In this document: piece after piece, positions 7,743 to 33,868 of the stretch
Layout: each line of letters begins with the position of its first letter
Numbering within the stretch: position 1 is the first letter of the stretch
Source of the DNA: Oscillospiraceae bacterium
GTDB lineage: Bacteria > Bacillota > Clostridia > Oscillospirales > Ruminococcaceae
Assembly (NCBI GenBank): GCA_021201235.1
Contig: JAJQFI010000015.1
Span: 1-33,868, forward strand
DNA: 33,868 nt
Direction: 5' to 3'
Notes under the pieces: model-generated
Database searches by the model: none
Told to the model about the DNA's origin: nothing
The model's input: only the letters and a program-made list of their open reading frames with translations
Program-made: the position numbers and the translations under genes

Positions 7743-8426
7743 TTATTCCACTTCCTTTCCCGTGGCGGTGATGTCGACGGCATACCATTCGCTGACGCCC
7801 TCGTCGTCAAACTCACAAGCCTTAATCTTCGGAATATCGAAGAGAAAATCGGCGGTGACGCTCCCCAAGGCGTCGGGATATGTCACGCTTAAGAACGGCG
7901 AAGCTTCAATCATAGATATAAGCACTTCAAGCGTTGCTTTTGATAGCTTTATATCACCGACGCTGAATGTGATTTTACTTCCGATAACATCAAGAACCGT
8001 CGTGCCGTCCGAAGCCGTTGCGGTGCTCCCGATTCGCTTTTTCTGGATAGTGTAATCAGTCCCGAGAGGAAGGATAACAGTAGAAGTCCCGTCGGTAATC
8101 GTGAGAGAGCCGGAAACGGTGGTCGAGTCGTCGTAGTCCTCGGCGGAAAACTGCCGGAATGAGAAGGTCGCCATGTCGGGCGATTCCCCGGTGTCTTCTC
8201 CTGTAATCTGAAATGCCGAGCCGTCGGAAACCCTCTTGAAAACGTCGCCATAGCTCAGGTCGACATCGGGCGAAACAGTAAGGGTGTATTTTCTTACGAG
8301 CTTCGAGTCCTCCTCTGAGGAGCTGTCAAGAATCAGGGCGCCCGTAAAGGTCTCGCCCTCGGTGAACCCATCCCCGGTCACCGTAAGCTTCGAAAATTCC
8401 TCCGAAAAGATTTCAACAAGGCTCAT
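7743..8426 (-). CDS. Phage structural protein of unknown role
   Basis: From the ATG at 8426, which overlaps the previous stop as TAATG, the protein has 227 residues. It is beta-rich and acidic, with many Thr, Ser and Asp residues. An N-terminal domain (about 1-110) includes VKR/FKR-type strands and DGSAFQITGED. A second part (about 115-227) ends in DITATGKEVE. I do not recognise the family. Position after the connector gene suggests a head-completion, stopper or tail-terminator role. A longer upstream frame exists but overlaps the connector gene and lacks a ribosome site. Confidence 0.65.
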   Translation of the reverse strand: MSLVEIFSEEFSKLTVTGDGFTEGETFTGALILDSSSEEDSKLVRKYTLTVSPDVDLSYGDVFKRVSDGSAFQITGEDTGESPDMATFSFRQFSAEDYDDSTTVSGSLTITDGTSTVILPLGTDYTIQKKRIGSTATASDGTTVLDVIGSKITFSVGDIKLSKATLEVLISMIEASPFLSVTYPDALGSVTADFLFDIPKIKACEFDDEGVSEWYAVDITATGKEVE

Positions 8427-8824
8427 TACAGCTTCCTCCATTGGTTGAGCCTCGAAGCGAACACCTTCTGCCACGAAGCCGAATCGCCGCCCTCGAGCTC
8501 ATAGGAATAGCCGCCGAAGCTCTCTTTTTTATAGGGCGACGGAGATGCCATATCCGAAGCCATATACTCCTCGATTTCCGAGCATACGCTCAGGAATTCC
8601 TCGGGAGGGTTCATAAGTGCGATGTCTCCCGAAAACTCCTCGTCCTTGAGCGTGTCGTCGGGATAGAGATGCACGCCGTCGTTATATTCGCTTCCCCAAA
8701 TGAGATAGTAGCCGTCAGTCATAAAGTCGGCGTTCGTAAGCGCACCGCCCGAGATTGTGAACTTCCCCGCATGAACAGAGGATATAAAATAGTTTCTTAT
8801 GTGCCTGCAAACAGCTTCAATCAT
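8426..8824 (-). CDS. Phage head-tail connector-like protein
   Basis: 132 residues. The N-terminus MIEAVCRHIRNYF and the central segments SGGALTNADFMTDGYYLIWGS and the SPYKKESFGGYSYE stretch match the connector proteins that follow capsid genes in many Clostridia prophages. These bind the portal and close the head after DNA packaging. The order scaffold, capsid, then this gene supports the role. AAAGGA is present about 12 bases before the ATG, and the stop overlaps the next start by one base. Confidence 0.72.
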   Translation of the reverse strand: MIEAVCRHIRNYFISSVHAGKFTISGGALTNADFMTDGYYLIWGSEYNDGVHLYPDDTLKDEEFSGDIALMNPPEEFLSVCSEIEEYMASDMASPSPYKKESFGGYSYELEGGDSASWQKVFASRLNQWRKL

Positions 8825-8893
8825 TCTTTTTTCTTTCCTTTCTTAATTCCCTTTCGGGACGGGGAGAAATCTCCCCATCCCATTCTGCCGGTT

Positions 8894-9733
8894 TTAGGCT
8901 ACGGTGCAGACGAGCACGGCGATAGCTGTCGGGGCGGTGACCTTTGCGCCGTAGACGTGAAGACCCTTGACGGCGTCGGCAAAGCGCTTTTCGGGGCGAT
9001 AAGCGGTGGTCTCAAGAACCTGCTCCGCATAGGTGCAAGCCGAAGAAACCTGTGCCGTGACCTTGTAGCACTCGCCGTCGTAATAGCAGTTGTTCGACTC
9101 ATAGATGTCGAATCCTGCGATTCTTCCGATGAAGCCGCTTCTTGTGGTCTCCTCGCCCATATTGCCGGAGCCGGTGAATCTCGAATCCTGCAACAGAAGC
9201 GCATAGACGTCGGGCGGCAGAACGATGCTTCTGCCCTCGTGAGGGACGTTGTTCTTGTCGAGGATTAGTCGAAGCTGAACGATGTAGCCGTAGACGTTGT
9301 CGGCGGTGAGAGCGATGGGTGCGTCCGAGCCGATGACGTTTGCGTCATCTGCGCCGTTCACCAAGGTCTCGAGGATATAGGCATCCGCCGCGTCGTTCAG
9401 GGCGTAGGCGCTTCTCTCCATAGCCTTGTCCATGATGTTTCCCGCCGCCTGCGCCTGCTCCACGTCGTCAATCTGGAAGTTGAAGTACTTCGCATTGTCG
9501 ATTTCGAGCATGCTGTCGGAGACGGAGAGGCTTTCGGGGTCGCCGATTTCGGAATCGGCTTCGTAGTCGGAAACGGTGATGTTTCCGATACTGTTGATGT
9601 GGACGGCAGAACCGCACTGCTTGATTTCGCCCTCGTAATCTCTGTTTACGAGGGAAGCCGCGACGTGAACCTTGTCAAGAGCATTGAGGAGTCTTGCGCT
9701 CCAGAGCTCGGGGATGAATGTAGATATTGCCAT
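8894..9733 (-). CDS. Phage major capsid protein
   Basis: The 279-residue protein begins MAISTFIPELWSARLL, a start seen in coat proteins of the P22/gp5-like group with the HK97 fold. The C-terminal half contains IVLPPDVYALLLQDSRF and a GFIGRIAGFDIYESN strand-turn typical of the axial domain. It is preceded at the usual position by the scaffold gene and followed by a connector gene. AAAGGAAA lies before the ATG. The frame is intact from end to end. Confidence 0.88.
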   Translation of the reverse strand: MAISTFIPELWSARLLNALDKVHVAASLVNRDYEGEIKQCGSAVHINSIGNITVSDYEADSEIGDPESLSVSDSMLEIDNAKYFNFQIDDVEQAQAAGNIMDKAMERSAYALNDAADAYILETLVNGADDANVIGSDAPIALTADNVYGYIVQLRLILDKNNVPHEGRSIVLPPDVYALLLQDSRFTGSGNMGEETTRSGFIGRIAGFDIYESNNCYYDGECYKVTAQVSSACTYAEQVLETTAYRPEKRFADAVKGLHVYGAKVTAPTAIAVLVCTVA

Positions 9734-9755
9734 AAATTTTTTCCTTTCTTTTTTA

Positions 9756-10340
9756 TTAGTCGTAATTGCTTACTCTCAGCGATTGCTTGATCGCCGGGTA
9801 GTTTTCGTTGATTTCCCTTGGGGACATCCTTCTTATGTCGTCCCTCGAGTAGCCTTTGTCGGATGAATTGCGGGGCGGAGTCGCCGTTTCGGCTCCCAAG
9901 AGATATCTCTTCGGGATAAATCCCGACCAGAGCCGGAGTATCGAATCCTTGACGGCTTCCTCGTCGATAAGCTCGCCGCTTTCGTCAAGCTCGATGCGGT
10001 CGAAATCCGTAACCTGTAAAATAGGGTTCACACATTCCTCCGGGATGTGAAGTTCTCTTAACATTTCCGTCACTGCCTGCTTCTTAGCCTGCACTGCCTT
10101 CTCCTTCGAAAGCTCCTCCCTGAATGCTTGATACTCTTTTTCAAGAGCCTCGTATTTCGCCCGATAGTCGTCAAGACTGTTCTTCGCGTTATCAAGCTCG
10201 CCCGTCAGACCTGTCAGCCTCTCAACCTCGGCTTTGTAGCCCTTAAGAGCCTCGACCGTCTCCCAGTGAGCCTTGAAGATAGCGTCCGCGTTTTCGTCCG
10301 TAATGCCCATTTCTCTGAGCATCCTTCGTGTCAATGCCAT
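9756..10340 (-). CDS. Phage capsid scaffolding protein, GP20-like
   Basis: From the ATG at 10340 the product has 194 residues. It begins MALTRRMLREMGITDE and continues with a long coiled coil (about 25-105) rich in Glu, Lys and Leu, both typical of GP20-type scaffold proteins. These guide capsid assembly and leave the head before packaging. The tail contains basic residues near RRMSPREINENYP that could contact the capsid protein. AAAGGAAAG precedes the start. The 20-codon extension upstream would run into the portal gene and is not adopted. Confidence 0.85.
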   Translation of the reverse strand: MALTRRMLREMGITDENADAIFKAHWETVEALKGYKAEVERLTGLTGELDNAKNSLDDYRAKYEALEKEYQAFREELSKEKAVQAKKQAVTEMLRELHIPEECVNPILQVTDFDRIELDESGELIDEEAVKDSILRLWSGFIPKRYLLGAETATPPRNSSDKGYSRDDIRRMSPREINENYPAIKQSLRVSNYD

Positions 10341-27916: not shown

Positions 27917-28114
27917 TTCGCTTCCCTCCTTCATTAATAAAATGCTATCATGGGTACTCGTTTTCACCCGAGAAAGCTGTCGGATAAGGTCTTCAGAGCC
28001 TTCCCGCAGTGACCCCGTCAGTCCGTTAGAGGTAACCTATAATAAATTATATGTCAACTCCACATGACTGTGGTGGATTTTACTTTGTTTGTTTGCTTTT
28101 CAGCGTTCTGTGGC
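27917..28114 (-). other. Spacer between rpsL and rpsG, 198 bases
   Basis: No gene is visible. It contains a small hairpin CCACA/TGTGG, a TTGACA next to a TATAAT that are too close to act as one promoter, and unstructured A/T-rich sequence before the rpsG ribosome site. In E. coli the equivalent spacer is the S7 autoregulatory site; I see no clear counterpart by eye. Confidence 0.4.
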
Positions 28115-28537
28115 TTACTTCTTGGTAGCCTTCGGTCTCTTTGCACCGTACTTGGATCTAGCCTGCATTCTCTTGGCAACGCCCTGAGTATCGAGGGTTC
28201 CTCTGATGATGTGGTAACGCACACCGGGGAGGTCCTTGACTCTGCCGCCTCTGATGAGAACAACGCTATGCTCCTGAAGGTTGTGTCCGATACCGGGAAT
28301 GTAAGCAGTGACTTCCGTGCCGTTTGTAAGACGAACTCTTGCAATCTTTCTCATAGCTGAGTTAGGCTTCTTAGGAGTCTGGGTCTTAACAGCGGTGCAG
28401 ACGCCTCTCTTCTGAGGGCAGGACAAATCAACGCTGACTTTCTTCTTGGAGTTGTAAATCTTCTGAAGAGCCGGAGCAGTGGACTTGTAAACGGAAACTT
28501 CTCTTTCCTTGCGAACCAACTGGTTAAAGGTAGGCAT
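28115..28537 (-). CDS. rpsL: 30S ribosomal protein S12
   Basis: 140 residues, the long form found in Gram-positive bacteria, with the extra stretch [15 protein letters not shown] relative to E. coli. It contains [22 protein letters not shown] (the two Lys whose replacement gives streptomycin resistance are both wild type here) and [14 protein letters not shown], whose Lys101 is the other classical position, also wild type. First gene of the str operon, after a leader with two hairpins. Confidence 0.99.
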
Positions 28538-28858
28538 GTTTTCTCTCCTTTCGTAAGAATTAAATTTGCGTGGATATTGAAACCCGGAAGTTGCGAAGCA
28601 ACTTCCCCAGATAGCTACGCCAGTAGCTATCTGTTCGCAGACTATTTAATTATACTTGTTGCTTAAGAATTTGTCAAGAAAAATTTTTCGGGGAAATATG
28701 ACGAATTTCAAAGCCGCAAAGGCAGCTTAACTGTGGTTTTTGTGCAAATTGCTCTCCGAAATGAGACATAAAGCAAAGAAGCCGCCTTTGGATGCTTTGA
28801 GGAACATGAAGAAGCCCAGAACTTTGTTCTGAGCTTTTCGCATCCTATAATATTTCCT
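28538..28858. other. Intergenic region of str leader and TetR gene end
   Basis: No coding sequence. From right to left it carries a hairpin at 28813-28835 (10-base-pair stem with one wobble, AGCCCAGAAC/GTTCTGAGCT, loop TTT) after the TetR stop, the str promoter at 28649-28677, and two leader hairpins at 28586-28606 (GGAAGTTGC/GCAACTTCC) and 28609-28632 (AGATAGCTAC/GTAGCTATCT). Confidence 0.7.
28649..28677 (-). promoter_or_regulatory. Promoter of the str operon
   Basis: Minus strand: TTGACA (28672-28677), 17 bases, TATAAT (28649-28654), a perfect consensus. The leader to the rpsL ATG is about 105 bases. Confidence 0.92.
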
Positions 28859-29422
28859 CTACAGCGCGTCCTTCCCCTCAATATACCCCCTGACGCCGCT
28901 GGACACAAGATTCTGCATCAGGTCGCTGATTTCCTCCGGGCTGATGTCCTTATTGTTTTCATGCCAACGCTCCAGGAGCCCGAACATGGCGGAGTTGACG
29001 AACGCGACGAGATAGTCGAAGTTCTCTGAGTCCGGGCGGACAGGGATGTACTGCGAAGCGAGAGGAATCAGTTCGGCTCTGACCCTCGGCAAAAAGCTCG
29101 AGTCCCCGTTCGGACCCAAGAGAATATAGATCTCCTCATTCATAGCGGAAAAGACCATCCGGAAAAATTCCGTTGGCGGTTTCTCATCTGACATGGATTT
29201 CTGAGCCACTGCCTTGACCTCACCGATAAGCTTGTCCTCGACATAGGACAATAAATCGTCGGTGTCCAAAAAGTACTCATAGAAGGTACTGCGGTTGTAG
29301 CCGGCACGCCGCGTCAGCTCGCTCACCGCAATCTTTGAAACCGGCTTTTCCTTTGCCAGAGCCCAAAAGGAGTCAACAAACTTTTGCCTTGTTCTATCTG
29401 TGATTTCCGGTTGTTTTTTCAT
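28859..29422 (-). CDS. TetR/AcrR-family regulator of the divergent redox/ADP-ribose array
   Basis: 187 residues. The helix-turn-helix reads IAVSELTRRAGYNRSTFYEYF (about residues 31-51), followed by a helical domain ending LMQNLVSSGVRGYIEG. It is divergent from the cysteine-cluster gene, with 153 bases between them. This region contains an array promoter and candidate operators (CAACA/TGTTG arms around GGT at about 29510-29523) that recur at the window's end, so one TetR protein could control two units. Confidence 0.93.
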   Translation of the reverse strand: MKKQPEITDRTRQKFVDSFWALAKEKPVSKIAVSELTRRAGYNRSTFYEYFLDTDDLLSYVEDKLIGEVKAVAQKSMSDEKPPTEFFRMVFSAMNEEIYILLGPNGDSSFLPRVRAELIPLASQYIPVRPDSENFDYLVAFVNSAMFGLLERWHENNKDISPEEISDLMQNLVSSGVRGYIEGKDAL

Positions 29423-29471
29423 CTAAAATCGCCTCTTCTTAATTATCCGACAGTTCCGGAAAAATTGGGGG

Positions 29472-29561
29472 TTGATAATACCTCCAAGCTGAGTATAATA
29501 TATATTATACAACAGGTTGTTGGATAATGTCAAGACAAATCTTCCCGTAATTTTGTCGGAG
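29472..29561 (+). promoter_or_regulatory. Array promoter with operator-like leader, copy A of a direct repeat
   Basis: TTGATA (29472-29477), 16 bases, TATAAT (29494-29499). The 55 bases 29507-29561 are identical to 33814-33868. The leader contains CAACA-GGT-TGTTG and an inverted relation between ATTATCCGACA upstream (29442-29452) and TGTTGGATAAT downstream, both suited to a TetR dimer. Confidence 0.8.
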
Positions 29562-29575
29562 AGGAGAGCGGATGT

Positions 29576-29911
29576 ATGAGTGACTCGGCTGGCGGATATG
29601 CCGTAAGCATATTCAAAGAATGGCTCAAGTGGCGTAATGACTGGGATTCCCTGTGCACCCGCTGCGGAAAATGCTGTTACACCCGCTCAATCGGCTCCGA
29701 CGGCAAGGTGAGGATTCATTATGACAACCCCTGTGAATATCTTGACACCCAGACGAATCTGTGCCGTGTGTATGAGGAACGATTCAAGAAGTGCAACCAC
29801 TGCGGAAAACTGACTTTGTACACGGCGCTGTTTAATACCACACTGCCGGAGGATTGTCCATATGTGACAACCTTCCGGGTGTGGATACACAAGCAGGATG
29901 AAGAAACCTGA
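29576..29911 (+). CDS. YkgJ-like Cys-cluster protein
   Basis: 111 residues with a Cys-rich motif CTRCGKCCYTRSIG (about 27-40) matching the CxxCxxCC signature of YkgJ/UPF0153 proteins, plus further Cys residues in NPCEYL, NLCRVYE, KKCNHCGK and EDCPY. These probably ligate a metal or iron-sulfur cluster; the biochemical role of the family is not established. GGAGAG lies about nine bases before the ATG at 29576. First gene of the array, 25 bases before the nitroreductase. Confidence 0.85.
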   Translation: MSDSAGGYAVSIFKEWLKWRNDWDSLCTRCGKCCYTRSIGSDGKVRIHYDNPCEYLDTQTNLCRVYEERFKKCNHCGKLTLYTALFNTTLPEDCPYVTTFRVWIHKQDEET

Positions 29912-29936
29912 TATACATTTTTAAGGAGGAATTTTT

Positions 29937-30467
29937 ATGCAAACATCGGAAGCAATCGCAAAAAGAAAGTCAACAAGGGACTTTGACCCCACAAAGGCTG
30001 TTCCGGACGAGGTTATCGACGAAATCGTCAAGGCGGGCTGTCAGGCTCCGGTCGGCGGAGGCAAGAGAGATTCTCTTCACCTGACAGTATGCAAGAGCCG
30101 TGAGATTCTCGAAGAAATCAATCAGTCCACCGCCGCGGCTATGAAGATGCCGGCGAGAGACTTCTTCTATGGAGCACCTGTCGTTGTCTTCGTTTCCGCT
30201 TCGGAGGAGCAGATGGCACCGGGAATTGAATATGCCAACTCCGCTTGCGTCATCGAGAATATGTTGATTGCCGCAACCGACGCGGGACTTGGAAATATCT
30301 ATCTCTGGGGACCTGTTCAGGGTCTTGCAAGAAACAAGGACATGTGTGCAAAGATGGGCATTCCGGAAGGCTTCAGACCTGTTTCCGCCGCCGCAATCGG
30401 CTATAGCCTGAGCGGTGAAGCAAAGCCGAGAGACCTGACCGTCTCACTCAGCACCAACTACATCTGA
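29937..30467 (+). CDS. Nitroreductase-family flavoprotein
   Basis: 176 residues. The N-terminus MQTSEAIAKRKSTRDFDPTKAVPDEVIDEIVKAGCQAP is the nitroreductase FMN-binding start (RKSTRDF), followed by IENMLIAATDAGLGNIYLWGP and the C-terminal region ending STNYI. Such enzymes transfer two electrons from NAD(P)H through FMN. The natural substrate cannot be told. AAGGAGG lies eight bases before the ATG. Second gene of the array; 33 bases before the next. Confidence 0.92.
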   Translation: MQTSEAIAKRKSTRDFDPTKAVPDEVIDEIVKAGCQAPVGGGKRDSLHLTVCKSREILEEINQSTAAAMKMPARDFFYGAPVVVFVSASEEQMAPGIEYANSACVIENMLIAATDAGLGNIYLWGPVQGLARNKDMCAKMGIPEGFRPVSAAAIGYSLSGEAKPRDLTVSLSTNYI

Positions 30468-30500
30468 TCTGAACTATTAAAAAAGCAAGGAGGCACTACT

Positions 30501-31193
30501 ATGGCAACTTACGAAGTCACACAGGAAGCAATGAAGAAGGCGATGAGCGAACGGCACACCGTCCGCAAGTACAAGACTGATAAGCTCCCTTCGGACATCG
30601 TCGAAAAGCTCAATTCGAGAATTGAGGAGAACAACAAAGAATATGCCTTGAACATCCGGCTTGTCCTGAACAACAAGGAGGCAATGCCCGGAATCATGGC
30701 TGCGACTATGTCGAAAAACGTCCTGAACTACATGATTTTAGCCGGTCCCGACAAGGCGTCGACCGACGAGGTGCTCGGATATGTCAGTGCCGACCTTATG
30801 CTGTATGCCCAGACACTTGGCTTGAATACCTGGTGGATAGGCGGAATGTACAGCAAGAAGAACGCAAGAAAGAATTCCGACGCTCCGGAAAATGCGAAAA
30901 TTATTGGAGTTGTAGCCGTCGGCTACGGAATGGAGCAGGGCGTTCCTCACAAGTCAAAGCCCGCAAGCGAAGTTTCTTCCTATGAAGGCGAAGCCCCCGA
31001 CTGGTTCAAGGCGGGAGTTGAAGCGGCTCTTCTGGCTCCGACGGGCATGAACCGTCAGGAGTTCACAATCAAAGGCACCGGCAATGAAGTTTCGATGACC
31101 GTTCCCGAGGGCTCGTTCTCAAAAGCAGACCTTGGAATCAGCAAATATTTCTTCGAGCTCGGTGCGGGAAAGGAAAACTTCACCTGGAAGTAA
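30501..31193 (+). CDS. Nitroreductase-like protein, TM1586 type
   Basis: 230 residues. It begins with an ERHTVRKYK motif, an FMN-phosphate-binding start like that of nitroreductases, followed by LNYMILAGPDK, LMLYAQTLGLNTWWIGGMYS and IIGVVAVGYG. Proteins of this larger two-lobe type (putative TM1586-like nitroreductases) carry two half-domains; the second half here has APDWFKAGVEAALLAPTGMNRQEF. GGAGG precedes the ATG. It is separated from the sirtuin genes by 118 bases with a hairpin. Confidence 0.87.
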   Translation: MATYEVTQEAMKKAMSERHTVRKYKTDKLPSDIVEKLNSRIEENNKEYALNIRLVLNNKEAMPGIMAATMSKNVLNYMILAGPDKASTDEVLGYVSADLMLYAQTLGLNTWWIGGMYSKKNARKNSDAPENAKIIGVVAVGYGMEQGVPHKSKPASEVSSYEGEAPDWFKAGVEAALLAPTGMNRQEFTIKGTGNEVSMTVPEGSFSKADLGISKYFFELGAGKENFTWK

Positions 31194-31311
31194 CTGCAAT
31201 CGTTGGTACCTCCACAAAGTCACATATAGATAAAGCACCACCCACCGAAAAAGCAACGATTTGGTGGGTCGGTGTTTATAACCGCATTTATAAAAATATG
31301 GAGATGAATTT
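31194..31311 (+). other. Spacer with competing hairpins before the sirtuin genes
   Basis: CACCACCCACC (31236-31246) pairs with GGTGGGTCGGTG (31263-31274) with one bulge. The loop holds CAACGATT (31254-31261), which is complementary to AATCGTTG (31198-31205). No long T run follows, so a terminator is doubtful; attenuation is possible. Confidence 0.45.
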
Positions 31312-32061
31312 ATGAGATACGAATCAAGTCAGCTAAGAGAATATATGGAACAAAGCGGCAAAACAGTCGCGGTAACGGGTGCCGGCATCTCCTATTTGTA
31401 CGGGATGAGACGCCTGAAGCAGAGCGTTGGGCTCATGAATTCAAGGCAGGTGCTCTCCCCTTCGTTCGTAAGAAGCAACCCGGATGATTTCTATAAAATA
31501 GTCAAGACATCTTTCCTGGATGCCACCTTCGAGAAGGGTCCGAGCGAGGTTCACAAACAGCTTGCGACCCTCGAAAAGCATGGCTTGCTATATGGGATAG
31601 TCACCCAGAACATGGACTGCCTGCATACGATTGCCGGTTCAAAGAACGTCGTCGAGTTTCAGGGAAGCTTCGGGGACAATATCTGCGTGGACTGCGGCAC
31701 AAGATACCTTAATTATAAAATCTGGAATCACGGGCACACACCCACCTGCGAAAAGTGCGGCTCGCCGCTGATGCCGACAACCTTCTGCCGGGAAAACAAG
31801 ATATCCGAGCAGGTCTCGAAGGAAAGCATGAAAAAAGCGCAGGAGATGATTTCCGAGGCGGATTTGGTCATAATCATCGGCACAACGGGATTCAGAAGCG
31901 ACGAGTATCTCAAGAAGATGAGAAAGGATACAAAGCTCGTCCAGATTAATCCCTCGGAAACTCCGCTTGACAGCGTTGCAAACTGGAATATCCACGCCGA
32001 CGCCGCAGAGGTTCTTGGCGAAGTAATGGACGGATGGGAGAAGTGCAAAGATGTTCTCTAA
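31312..32061 (+). CDS. Sirtuin-like protein 1 with Gln in place of catalytic His
   Basis: 249 residues of Sir2 fold. Visible motifs: GAGIS (23-27), TQNMDCLHTIAGS (98-110), VEFQGS (114-119) and a zinc site C-x2-C (Cys125, Cys128) with a second C-x2-C (Cys146, Cys149). Canonical sirtuins have a catalytic His in ELHG; here it is Gln117. The PDFR stretch that usually follows GAGIS is missing. Both changes are features of sirtuins that ADP-ribosylate instead of deacylating (SirTM type). NAD use is likely, deacylase activity unlikely. GGAG lies eight bases before the ATG; the stop overlaps the next start by 11 bases. Confidence 0.85.
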   Translation: MRYESSQLREYMEQSGKTVAVTGAGISYLYGMRRLKQSVGLMNSRQVLSPSFVRSNPDDFYKIVKTSFLDATFEKGPSEVHKQLATLEKHGLLYGIVTQNMDCLHTIAGSKNVVEFQGSFGDNICVDCGTRYLNYKIWNHGHTPTCEKCGSPLMPTTFCRENKISEQVSKESMKKAQEMISEADLVIIIGTTGFRSDEYLKKMRKDTKLVQINPSETPLDSVANWNIHADAAEVLGEVMDGWEKCKDVL

Positions 32062-32761
32062 ATCGGGCTTCGACGACAAGATACAGAAATTTGCGGAATA
32101 TGTTGACAACTGTAGCGGTATAGTTGCAATAACGGGTGCGGGAATTTCGATTTCCGGCGGAGGAGTGACCTACAGTCAGCTCTCCCGCAATCTTCGCCCC
32201 GGAGGTTTTGAAAGCGAATCGTTTCTTAAGTCCCATGTCAAAACCATGCTCCACTACAAACCGAGCTTAAGTCATTATGCCTTGGCAGATCTTGAACGTG
32301 AAGGCAAGCTCATAGGGGTCATCACGACGAACGAGGACTGCATGCACACCATCGCAGGCTCACAGAACGTCGCCGAGATTCAGGGAAGCTTCCAGATTAA
32401 CCGCTGTTCGGATTGCGGCAAGCACTTTGACGGCTATGAGATATGGAACAAGGATGAACTCCCTAAGTGCGATTCCTGCGGCGGAACGATTCTCCCGTGG
32501 GAGCTCTACAGCCACATCGGGCTGTGGGACGAAGGCGTCAAGGACGCGCAGAACTGGATTTCAAAAGCCGACCTGATAATAGTAATCGGCACCAACGGCT
32601 ACTATGGCGGCGTCTATTGGAACCACAGGCGGAGCGATGCCACCATAGTTCAGATTAACCCGGGGCACACAGCCTTCGACAGGGTTGCGGATCTGAACAT
32701 TCGCGAAGAATGCGACGACGTATTCAGAGAGCTTAAGGAAAGGCGGAGTAAAAATGCCTGA
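32051..32761 (+). CDS. Sirtuin-like protein 2, tandem paralogue
   Basis: 236 residues, clearly related to the preceding gene: GAGIS (29-33), TTNEDCMHTIAGS (92-104), AEIQGS with Gln111 at the catalytic His position, Cys119/122 and Cys140/143. After GAGIS it reads ISGGGVTYSQLSRNLRP, which resembles the TYS segment of SirTM proteins. It begins inside the end of sirtuin 1, with GGGAGAAG upstream, and its stop overlaps the macrodomain gene by 8 bases. Two copies may form a heteromer or have different targets. Confidence 0.85.
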   Translation: MFSKSGFDDKIQKFAEYVDNCSGIVAITGAGISISGGGVTYSQLSRNLRPGGFESESFLKSHVKTMLHYKPSLSHYALADLEREGKLIGVITTNEDCMHTIAGSQNVAEIQGSFQINRCSDCGKHFDGYEIWNKDELPKCDSCGGTILPWELYSHIGLWDEGVKDAQNWISKADLIIVIGTNGYYGGVYWNHRRSDATIVQINPGHTAFDRVADLNIREECDDVFRELKERRSKNA

Positions 32762-33734
32762 TGAAGAAAAGATGAAAGAGCTCGCCGAGAAGATGCGCGA
32801 AGCGGAAAACAAGGGTCTGACAGAGGAACAAATCAAGGCTCGTGATGCCGAAAGAGAAAAGCGCAGGCTTGAAAATATCAAGATTCTTGAGGACACGCTC
32901 GGCATTCTCGAAAAGGGCTCCTATGAAAAGGACGGCAAGGAGATAAATCTCAGATTCTCTGCCGCTGAAATGGAAGAGGCAAAAGTATATCTCCCCGAGG
33001 ATATCGAAGCTATTGAACAGTCGGCACCGGTTACAAAGCATTCGGATGAACGCGATATAAGCCGGATTTTCGGCTGTGAAAACGAAGATGCGCTTGTTCT
33101 TGCAAAGAAAAGATATCTTGAGATGAAGGAAGAGGGGGACTTTTCGCCGAAGGTATTGGTGCTGAATCTCGCTTCGGCTACCGAGCCCGGTGGACGCACC
33201 CGCAAGGGCGCAAGTGCGCAGGAGGAAGACCTCTGCCGGCGTTCGTCGCTCCTTCTTTCCCTCGAAAGCGAGAACGCAAAGAAGTATTATGACTATAACA
33301 ATTCCCTCAAGACCCACATGGGCTCAAACGGGATTGTCATGTCGGAAAATGTCGAGGTTATAAAAAATCACTTTTCCGAAACGCTTGCAGAGCCGTTCCC
33401 GATATCGGTTATGACCTGTACCGCACCGATGATTCGCATGGGGCTCGAGGGAATGACGCAGGAAGAGTATGAAAGCATGCTCGAAACCCGTATTCGGGGA
33501 ATGCTGACGGTCGCCGCAACAGAAAAATATCGCCATTTGATCTTAGGCGCATTCGGTTGCGGAATATACGGAAACGATGCAAGCCTTGTGTCAAGGCTGT
33601 TTTATGAGGCGATTATGGGCTTTTCCTATGCCGGAAAGCCGGCGGAGGCGCTGTTTGATTCGATAGACTTTGCCGTCCTCTGCAAGCCTGAAAAGGATTA
33701 TAATTACAAGGAATTTTGCAAGTATTTTTCGTAA
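32754..33734 (+). CDS. Poly(ADP-ribose) glycohydrolase-type macrodomain protein
   Basis: 326 residues, of the microbial PARG type (TIGR02452/DUF2263 group). About 70 N-terminal residues form a charged coil; then VLVLNLASATEPGG, the catalytic loop region GASAQEEDLCRRSSLLLSL (Gln156, Glu157, Glu158) and near the end LILGAFGCGIYGND. Such proteins remove ADP-ribose from proteins or cleave ADP-ribose chains. In the Gly-rich loop the third Gly of the usual GGG is Arg (PGGRTRKG). AAGGCGGAG precedes the ATG. Overlap with the sirtuins supports a shared pathway of ADP-ribose addition and removal. Confidence 0.88.
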   Translation: MPDEEKMKELAEKMREAENKGLTEEQIKARDAEREKRRLENIKILEDTLGILEKGSYEKDGKEINLRFSAAEMEEAKVYLPEDIEAIEQSAPVTKHSDERDISRIFGCENEDALVLAKKRYLEMKEEGDFSPKVLVLNLASATEPGGRTRKGASAQEEDLCRRSSLLLSLESENAKKYYDYNNSLKTHMGSNGIVMSENVEVIKNHFSETLAEPFPISVMTCTAPMIRMGLEGMTQEEYESMLETRIRGMLTVAATEKYRHLILGAFGCGIYGNDASLVSRLFYEAIMGFSYAGKPAEALFDSIDFAVLCKPEKDYNYKEFCKYFS

Positions 33735-33752
33735 TTGAACCGTCCGCGAACT

Positions 33753-33868
33753 ATCCGACACTTTGGAAATTGTTGGGGTTGATACCCGATTTCGGTTGAG
33801 TATAATATTAATCATACAACAGGTTGTTGGATAATGTCAAGACAAATCTTCCCGTAATTTTGTCGGAG
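33753..33868 (+). repeat. Copy B of the promoter/leader repeat, cut by the window end
   Basis: Similar to 29445-29561. TTGATA (33779-33784), 16 bases, TATAAT (33801-33806), then 55 bases (33814-33868) identical to 29507-29561. The upstream part, including TCCGACA, is similar but diverged. It presumably drives a gene beyond the window. Confidence 0.88.

Follow-up and report, generated by a model that had tools for sequence, protein, structure and literature searches.

Two Gln-type sirtuins encoded with a microbial-type PARG in a conserved gene triplet: a candidate ADP-ribosylation module

In a 33,868-nucleotide stretch of DNA from an Oscillospiraceae bacterium (contig JAJQFI010000015.1 of assembly GCA_021201235.1, positions 1 to 33,868; hereafter the window), we analyzed a gene triplet encoding two tandem sirtuins, SirA and SirB, and a microbial-type PARG. 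Our best reading, to which we give a probability of roughly 0.55, is that a TetR-controlled redox or xenobiotic operon holds a reversible ADP-ribosylation module with SirA and SirB as putative writers and PARG as putative eraser. Such a module would run parallel to the pairs of class M sirtuins (SirTM) and zinc macrodomains (Zn-Macro), would be made of different parts, and would putatively be induced by stress or redox change. In support of this proposal, NAD-site and zinc-ribbon residues are kept in both sirtuins, the Glu pair of PARG is intact, the genes co-occur across genomes, and an operator-like sequence is repeated.

The SirA-SirB-PARG triplet

The triplet comprises three overlapping open reading frames (ORFs):

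31312-32061, + strand: SirA, 249 aa ORF; Q-type sirtuin with N100, D102, Q117 and four Cys at the zinc-ribbon places
32051-32761, + strand: SirB, 236 aa ORF; Q-type sirtuin with N94, D96, Q111 and four Cys at the zinc-ribbon places
32754-33734, + strand: microbial-type PARG, 326 aa ORF; QEE at residues 156-158

These coordinates, and the overlaps of 11 bases between SirA and SirB and 8 bases between SirB and PARG, agree with the first-pass annotation of this DNA. Its reading of the products as two Sir2-fold proteins and a PARG-type protein was borne out by Pfam and NCBIfam profile searches. Pfam SIR2 matched SirA at 4.3e-24 and SirB at 1e-19, and the third protein matched PARG_cat_microb (PF10021; 2.7e-26, 93.2 bits against a curated cut-off of 23.5) as well as NCBIfam TIGR02452 (3.3e-46, 158 bits against a cut-off of 50). 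Upon sequence searches of the PDB, the best match was TmSir2 for SirA and AfSir2 for SirB, and the third protein matched DrPARG (5ZDB) and TcPARG (3SIG). The 11-base overlap, set by the ATG of SirB and the stop of SirA, is preserved in 9/9 same-genus relatives. All three genes are under purifying selection, the mean ratio of nonsynonymous to synonymous substitution rates (dN/dS; 21 pairs from 7 same-genus genomes) being 0.063 for SirA, 0.066 for SirB and 0.100 for PARG.

Sirtuins are recognized by the motifs GAGxS, GIPDFR and GTS and by their zinc-binding Cys. Both SirA and SirB match the Sir2 family profile and possess the NAD core (GAG, N, D) and the zinc-ribbon Cys. All 26 aligned family members, a set that counts the window's two and excludes one sirtuin with two stops (L018, 8188-8973), share an invariant GAGIS, the Asn and Asp of the NAD site and the four Cys. 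At the place of the catalytic His of deacylases, both proteins carry Gln (Q117 in SirA, codon 31660-31662; Q111 in SirB, codon 32381-32383), as the first-pass annotation had noticed, and this replacement is found in 26 of the 26 members. When canonical and Q-type sequences were aligned together, this column held H in 19/19 canonical rows and Q in 25/25 rows of SirA, SirB, single-copy and SirTM sequences; the genome's own HG sirtuin was excluded from one of the alignments. The GIPDFR position reads YLYGMRRLKQ or a near variant in SirA and GGG[VIM]TYxQ in SirB (16 of 17 SirB rows), and the GTS motif is altered in both. Neither protein reaches the NCBIfam deacylase cut-offs (best 140.6 bits against 320 for SirA and 117.2 against 243 for SirB). 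The same genome keeps a canonical HG sirtuin (L001).

With regard to the PARG, QEE, the GAF loop and GG are invariant in 11/11 sequences. The third Gly of GGG is replaced, giving GG[R/H/Q], where the motif GGGx6-8QEE is taken as defined in passages of PMC7050489.

Distribution and relation to class M sirtuins

Related loci were gathered by scanning genome contigs with six short peptide patterns, an approach that favors close kin and returned 18 loci. SirA-SirB-PARG was present in all nine close loci (L004-L012, the nine same-genus carriers), or 10/10 with the window. Outside the genus, we considered 12 loci or genomes (L013-L021 and the class-sample genomes G309, G334 and G372), and the triplet, complete or split over contigs, was found in 7 of them. 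The first-pass annotation had made its proposal depend on conservation of the triplet in related genomes, and the survey came out in its favor. PARG lies beside Q sirtuins in eight of the 12 (L013, L015, L016, L017, L019, L020, G309 and G334) and was not found in three (L014, L018 and G372); L021 ends at a contig edge. Six carry three sirtuins in the order SirA-SirB-SirB (L013, L015, L016, L017, L021 and, spread over two contigs, G334). Downstream of the module, partial extra sirtuin ORFs that appear to be decaying copies were observed at L015 9488-9985, L018 8404-8976 and L058 2190-2489. In G334, gene loss is suggested by short remnants next to the sirtuins that resemble PARG and flavodoxin (L057 7669-7728; L058 110-288). 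The L060 locus (7964-9767) holds a single diverged Q sirtuin with a TM1586 nitroreductase and a MarR regulator; its genome gave no PARG match.

Co-occurrence of PARG was assessed in 21 genomes, namely 18 of the 31 same-genus genomes (the window's own included) plus G309, G334 and G372. PARG was present in 12/12 genomes with SirB (10/10 within the genus) and in 0/8 same-genus genomes without SirB, and it was absent from G372. None of the 12 genomes that have it, the window's own included, holds another PF10021 match. SirB-level matches occurred in 9/30 other same-genus genomes and in 0/29 genomes of other genera. In the class sample, 3 of 390 other genomes exceeded 161 bits among the matches listed, the diverged G372 included, and none of the 26 lower-scoring sirtuins inspected carries a QG motif. 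The sirtuin family is rare: within the phylum sample, it was found in 0/397 other genomes at E 1e-50, and a PARG near this family at E 1e-40 in 1/397 others, a weak case. Such patchiness across families suggests horizontal transfer. Carriage as phage cargo was rejected: two viral-contig stretches matched a pattern and neither encodes a relative, and of 35 distantly matching phage records, the three inspected (L022, L023 and L025) encode HG sirtuins.

Judged by motifs, partner gene and profile scores, which together ruled out class M membership, SirA and SirB are not SirTMs. For this comparison, a SirTM set was gathered by a family search with NF003163 (PRK04143.1), which we take to be the zinc macrodomain family of SirTM operons, and sirtuins and loci were classified with motif expressions. 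Eleven of the twelve NF003163 loci inspected have an adjacent ORF with GAGLSxxAGF, TTNVDH and YTQGDYGL, one of them (L075) from the window's genome; L064 does not. The SirTM pyrophosphate motif GVGx[NT]TP is absent from our sirtuins, which have IGTTGF (SirA) or GT[NHR]G (SirB) at its place. Nor did we find an equivalent of SirTM R192, the Arg in contact with the Gln: the NLR of SirTM, presumably the holder of R192, aligns with ELY of SirB in one profile alignment, and the family alignment has no invariant Arg in this stretch of SirA or SirB. TTN is common to SirTM, SirB and the sirtuin of G372, and SirA is without it. As the first-pass annotation held, the putative eraser belongs to the PARG group in place of the zinc macrodomain: no zinc macrodomain stands beside the triplet, where the neighbor is the PF10021 PARG, and the genome's NF003163 macrodomain lies elsewhere, on contig C28.

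Contig C28 (L075, 115773-116546) holds a separate class M pair, consisting of a macrodomain over the NF003163 cut-off and a SirTM ORF that was not among the matches of a PF02146 search of the genome. At another locus (L074, 1-1535), two tandem SirTM ORFs adjoin one macrodomain gene, pointing to duplication in class M too. Two traits that had been set against SirTM operons in the first-pass annotation proved true but less telling. There are indeed two sirtuins, but their duplication is judged to be old, with no recent copy, because SirA and SirB are only ~38% identical, and tandem sirtuins also occur in class M as just described. Lipoylation genes are indeed absent from the profiled neighbors, but this is not distinctive, since SirTM/macrodomain pairs without them are known from passages of PMC4518038. 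A lipoylation link was itself rejected, the genome's one GcvH-like match being weak and on another contig.

Against a SirA/SirB profile, 29 canonical sirtuins scored 125-162 bits, which represents the upper end for such proteins since the canonical loci (L030-L055) were the best scorers of the class-sample profile ranking. The genome's own canonical sirtuin scored 100 and that of G372 scored 241; ten SirTM ORFs gave 11-22 bits and two more gave no match. Profile-profile scores were 268-329 between SirA or SirB and canonical sirtuins, 46-52 between SirTM and SirA or SirB, and 90-112 between SirTM and canonical sirtuins. In trees, SirA, SirB and SirTM each form a separate clade with a bootstrap of 99-100 (SirTM 100/100), and SirA, SirB and the sirtuin of G372 group at 96-98. 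The best trees join SirTM to SirA/B weakly (53/80; 78/79 after removal of three long canonical rows and of the Q and T columns). The approximately unbiased test disfavored placing SirA/B and the single-copy Q sirtuin in one clade with clostridial canonical rows (p-AU 0.044; 0.0008 in a reduced-alignment test), with long branches in play in these values, and did not reject a grouping of SirTM with SirB and the single-copy Q sirtuin alone (p-AU 0.31). The first tree is uninformative on the origin of Gln, its canonical rows forming a single group. For the second, L080 and L084 were left out after failing the motif filter, and canonical and SirA/SirB rows were thinned. Descent of the Gln of SirTM and SirA/B from one ancestor, or its independent origin, is neither shown nor rejected by these trees. 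The weak joining would run against simple convergence, and class M may descend from such forms.

Genomic context and operator-like repeats

The triplet makes up the distal portion of an apparent operon, whose first genes encode a small CxxCxxCC protein and two nitroreductases. The surrounding features are:

28859-29422, − strand: TetR-family regulator (Pfam TetR_C_8 and TetR_N), divergent to the operon
29472-29533, both strands: divergent promoter/operator region; TTGATA-16-TATAAT on +, TTGACA-18-TATAAT on −
29509-29521: imperfect palindrome ACAACAGGTTGTT, inside the divergent promoter/operator region
29576-29911, + strand: small CxxCxxCC protein, 111 aa (PF03692 E 0.0014, below its cut-off)
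29937-30467, + strand: nitroreductase-family flavoprotein (PF00881, 8.9e-19)
30501-31193, + strand: TM1586-type nitroreductase (PF14512, 1.3e-60)
31235-31276, + strand: conserved stem-loop between the nitroreductase gene and SirA
33779-33868, + strand: second promoter/operator copy, preceding ABC exporter genes beyond the window end; a third copy lies at contig position 34002

Neighbors were counted by homologue comparison across loci, simple gene calling having hidden some genes, and same-genus counts here include the window. The TetR homologue occupies the same place in 10/10 same-genus loci and is also found in L019 (60% identity) and L059 (36%). Homologues of the CxxCxxCC protein occur in 10/10 same-genus loci and in L017, L019 and L057, with the Cys pattern conserved across 12 aligned members. 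The PF00881 nitroreductase is present in 7/10 same-genus loci and upstream of the sirtuins in L013, L015, L017 and L018; the TM1586 nitroreductase is present in 10/10 and beside Q sirtuins in L014 (opposite strand) and L060. Outside the genus, we also found a nitroreductase together with flavodoxin in L013, L015, L017 and L018, Rrf2 in L015, L017, L018 and L021, and MarR with a TM1586 nitroreductase in G372; the upstream stretches of L020, L057 and L058 are too short to judge. These neighbors show a recurring redox context whose components vary, the regulator being TetR, Rrf2 or MarR and the other parts nitroreductases and flavodoxin. In same-genus loci, PARG is followed by ABC transporter genes (four profiled in L004). 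Beyond the window end on contig C26 (L056, 6043-12808), the ABC genes appear twice, 3777 bases apart, unlike in other same-genus loci, which could reflect duplication or assembly error.

A promoter scan gave 9 matches in the region compared to 4.3 (standard deviation 2.2) in shuffles. The 19-base motif ATACAACAGGTTGTTGGAT occurs genome-wide only at 29507, 33814 and 34002 of the window's contig (≤3 mismatches; reversed control 0), and an exact 54-bp repeat joins 29508-29561 to 33815-33868 (expected 0.00 in shuffles). In 8/9 same-genus relatives, its 16-base core (≤2 mismatches) precedes the operon and recurs after PARG; in L007, only the copy after PARG was found. The core was also found with two mismatches in L019, between TetR and its operon, and was not found in the other outside-genus loci examined. 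We infer that the operon and the ABC exporters share a putative operator.

The stem-loop has 17 consensus pairs in 10 same-genus loci, of which 11 are invariant, one is changed on both sides and two are broken in one or two loci. Folding of 31190-31315 gave a z of -2.2, with 5/200 shuffles folding as well, and Rfam gave no match in 28000-33868. The element may act as an attenuator, a partial terminator or a processing site.

Proposed function and comparison with known systems

In the proposed mechanism, the TetR regulator would leave its operator, with both its binding and its signal presumed, and the operon would be induced. SirA and SirB would bind NAD+ and, without the catalytic His, would not deacylate. 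One or both would transfer ADP-ribose to a target, from which PARG would remove it. The target is probably a nearby gene product, either a nitroreductase or the small Cys-rich protein, or else a redox protein. The eraser would presumably act on Tyr-linked mono-ADP-ribose or a ribose 2'-OH linkage, the reported microbial PARG substrates. It could be objected that PARG cleaves only poly-ADP-ribose. A PARG need not mean poly-ADP-ribose, since passages of two papers report other activities, in that two bacterial PARGs remove Tyr-linked mono-ADP-ribose (PMC11541775) and two remove 2'-OH RNA ADP-ribose (PMC11833690). The idea of a distinct ADP-ribosylation module in the first-pass annotation stands insofar as the triplet is a conserved unit that co-occurs in the genomes tested and fits a module apart from SirTM/Zn-Macro. 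It did not take in the nitroreductase, CxxCxxCC and TetR genes, the class M pair in the same genome, or the operator-like sequence that recurs before the ABC exporters.

Several points weigh against this proposal. Outside the genus, L014 is a lone SirB, L018 has SirB copies and a truncated SirA with no PARG found, L019 has SirB and PARG with no SirA, and G372 has a single diverged Q sirtuin with no PARG. No homologue of either nitroreductase was found in the stretches examined for L016, L019, L021 and L059. The shared operator is read from sequence, and the 118-base gap with its conserved stem-loop before SirA makes a single operon transcript presumptive. Lastly, SirTM chemistry may not carry over to SirA and SirB because equivalents of R192 and GVGx[NT]TP were not found.

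The missing R192 would also suit pseudoenzymes or sensors that bind NAD+, ADP-ribose or an ADP-ribosylated partner, with PARG acting on other substrates, as would the loss of GIPDFR and the catalytic His and the altered GTS beside a kept NAD core and four Cys. We regard this explanation as conceivable but unlikely. Q, N and D are invariant despite the ~38% identity of SirA and SirB, which would exceed expectation for binding alone, and catalysis by SpySirTM depends on a Gln at this place. According to passages of PMC4518038, the same Gln is required for transfer by SpySirTM and its change to His abolishes transfer; in SirTM, Gln for His accompanies transferase activity, with deacylase activity undetected.

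It is rather improbable that PARG provides immunity against incoming ADP-ribosylating toxins, in an operon for toxin or xenobiotic defense with exporters and with accessory or counter-modifying sirtuins. Copies of the operator-like sequence do precede the adjoining ABC genes, and passages of PMC11833690 describe bacterial PARGs shielding E. coli from the ADP-ribosylating toxin RhsP2. However, PARG tracks the sirtuins across the 21 genomes as the sole PF10021 match of each of its 12 carriers, and PADLOC on the three proteins gave just a marginal AbiI match for SirA (E 0.007). This match was also the sole one for eight proteins, where we took it as noise and rejected an anti-phage system. That the sirtuins are ordinary deacylases with another base, with PARG handling O-acyl-ADP-ribose, is very doubtful even though the SirA/SirB profile lies far nearer canonical sirtuins than SirTM, given that the catalytic His is lost in 26/26, GIPDFR is lost and the genome retains its canonical HG sirtuin (L001).

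One elaboration of the proposed writer-eraser module strikes us as a long shot: one sirtuin would start and the other extend a short ADP-ribose chain (or add to a ribose 2'-OH) that PARG cleaves, amounting to an oligo- or poly-ADP-ribose cycle made by sirtuins in a bacterium without a detected PARP domain. No PARP domain was found in the genome, a weak absence as the search's control gave no match either.

If the proposed module is real, SirA and SirB would constitute a second Gln-type sirtuin family, one that stands apart from class M and has a partner from another eraser family. They would put to the test both the idea that a His-to-Gln change is a general way for deacylases to become transferases and the idea that class M arose from such forms. 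They would also supply bacterial PARGs with a physiological writer; passages of PMC11833690 describe the physiological roles of these enzymes as unknown. The neighboring candidate targets make the question directly testable. PARG-linked sirtuins are not described in the titles and abstract openings of the papers listed, mainly open-access, and the matched passages of PMC9503650 hold nothing on PARG.

Taken together, SirA/SirB with PARG appear to be a variant on writer-eraser pairs of a sirtuin and a macrodomain-superfamily protein. They are like class M SirTM with its zinc macrodomain (PMC4518038, PMC11490716) in having QG for HG, the NAD-site Asn and Asp, an adjoining macrodomain-superfamily eraser, and oxidoreductases and a redox context nearby; passages of PMC4518038 describe an extended SirTM operon with two oxidoreductases and an oxidative-stress response. 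SirB further shares TTN for TQN and TY after GAGxS. They differ in the PARG-type eraser, the two or three sirtuins and an identity of ~20% to SirTM, and no GcvH-L or LplA2 was seen beside the triplet. Canonical deacylases (CobB, TmSir2, AfSir2) are the best sequence and profile match and share the NAD core and zinc-ribbon Cys, whereas SirA and SirB have His replaced by Gln, GIPDFR lost and GTS altered. The PARG resembles TcPARG (3SIG) and DrPARG (5ZDB) in PF10021/TIGR02452, QEE and the GAF loop, but has GG[R/H/Q] for GGG and TR for the catalytic-loop FL of DrPARG, and is genetically tied to Q sirtuins. A genetic or functional writer-eraser logic is shared with the DarT/DarG and RhsP2/PARG pairs in passages of PMC7050489 and PMC11833690; in those pairs, the writer is an ADP-ribosyltransferase toxin with a different fold, whereas the putative writers here have the sirtuin fold and sit in a redox operon.

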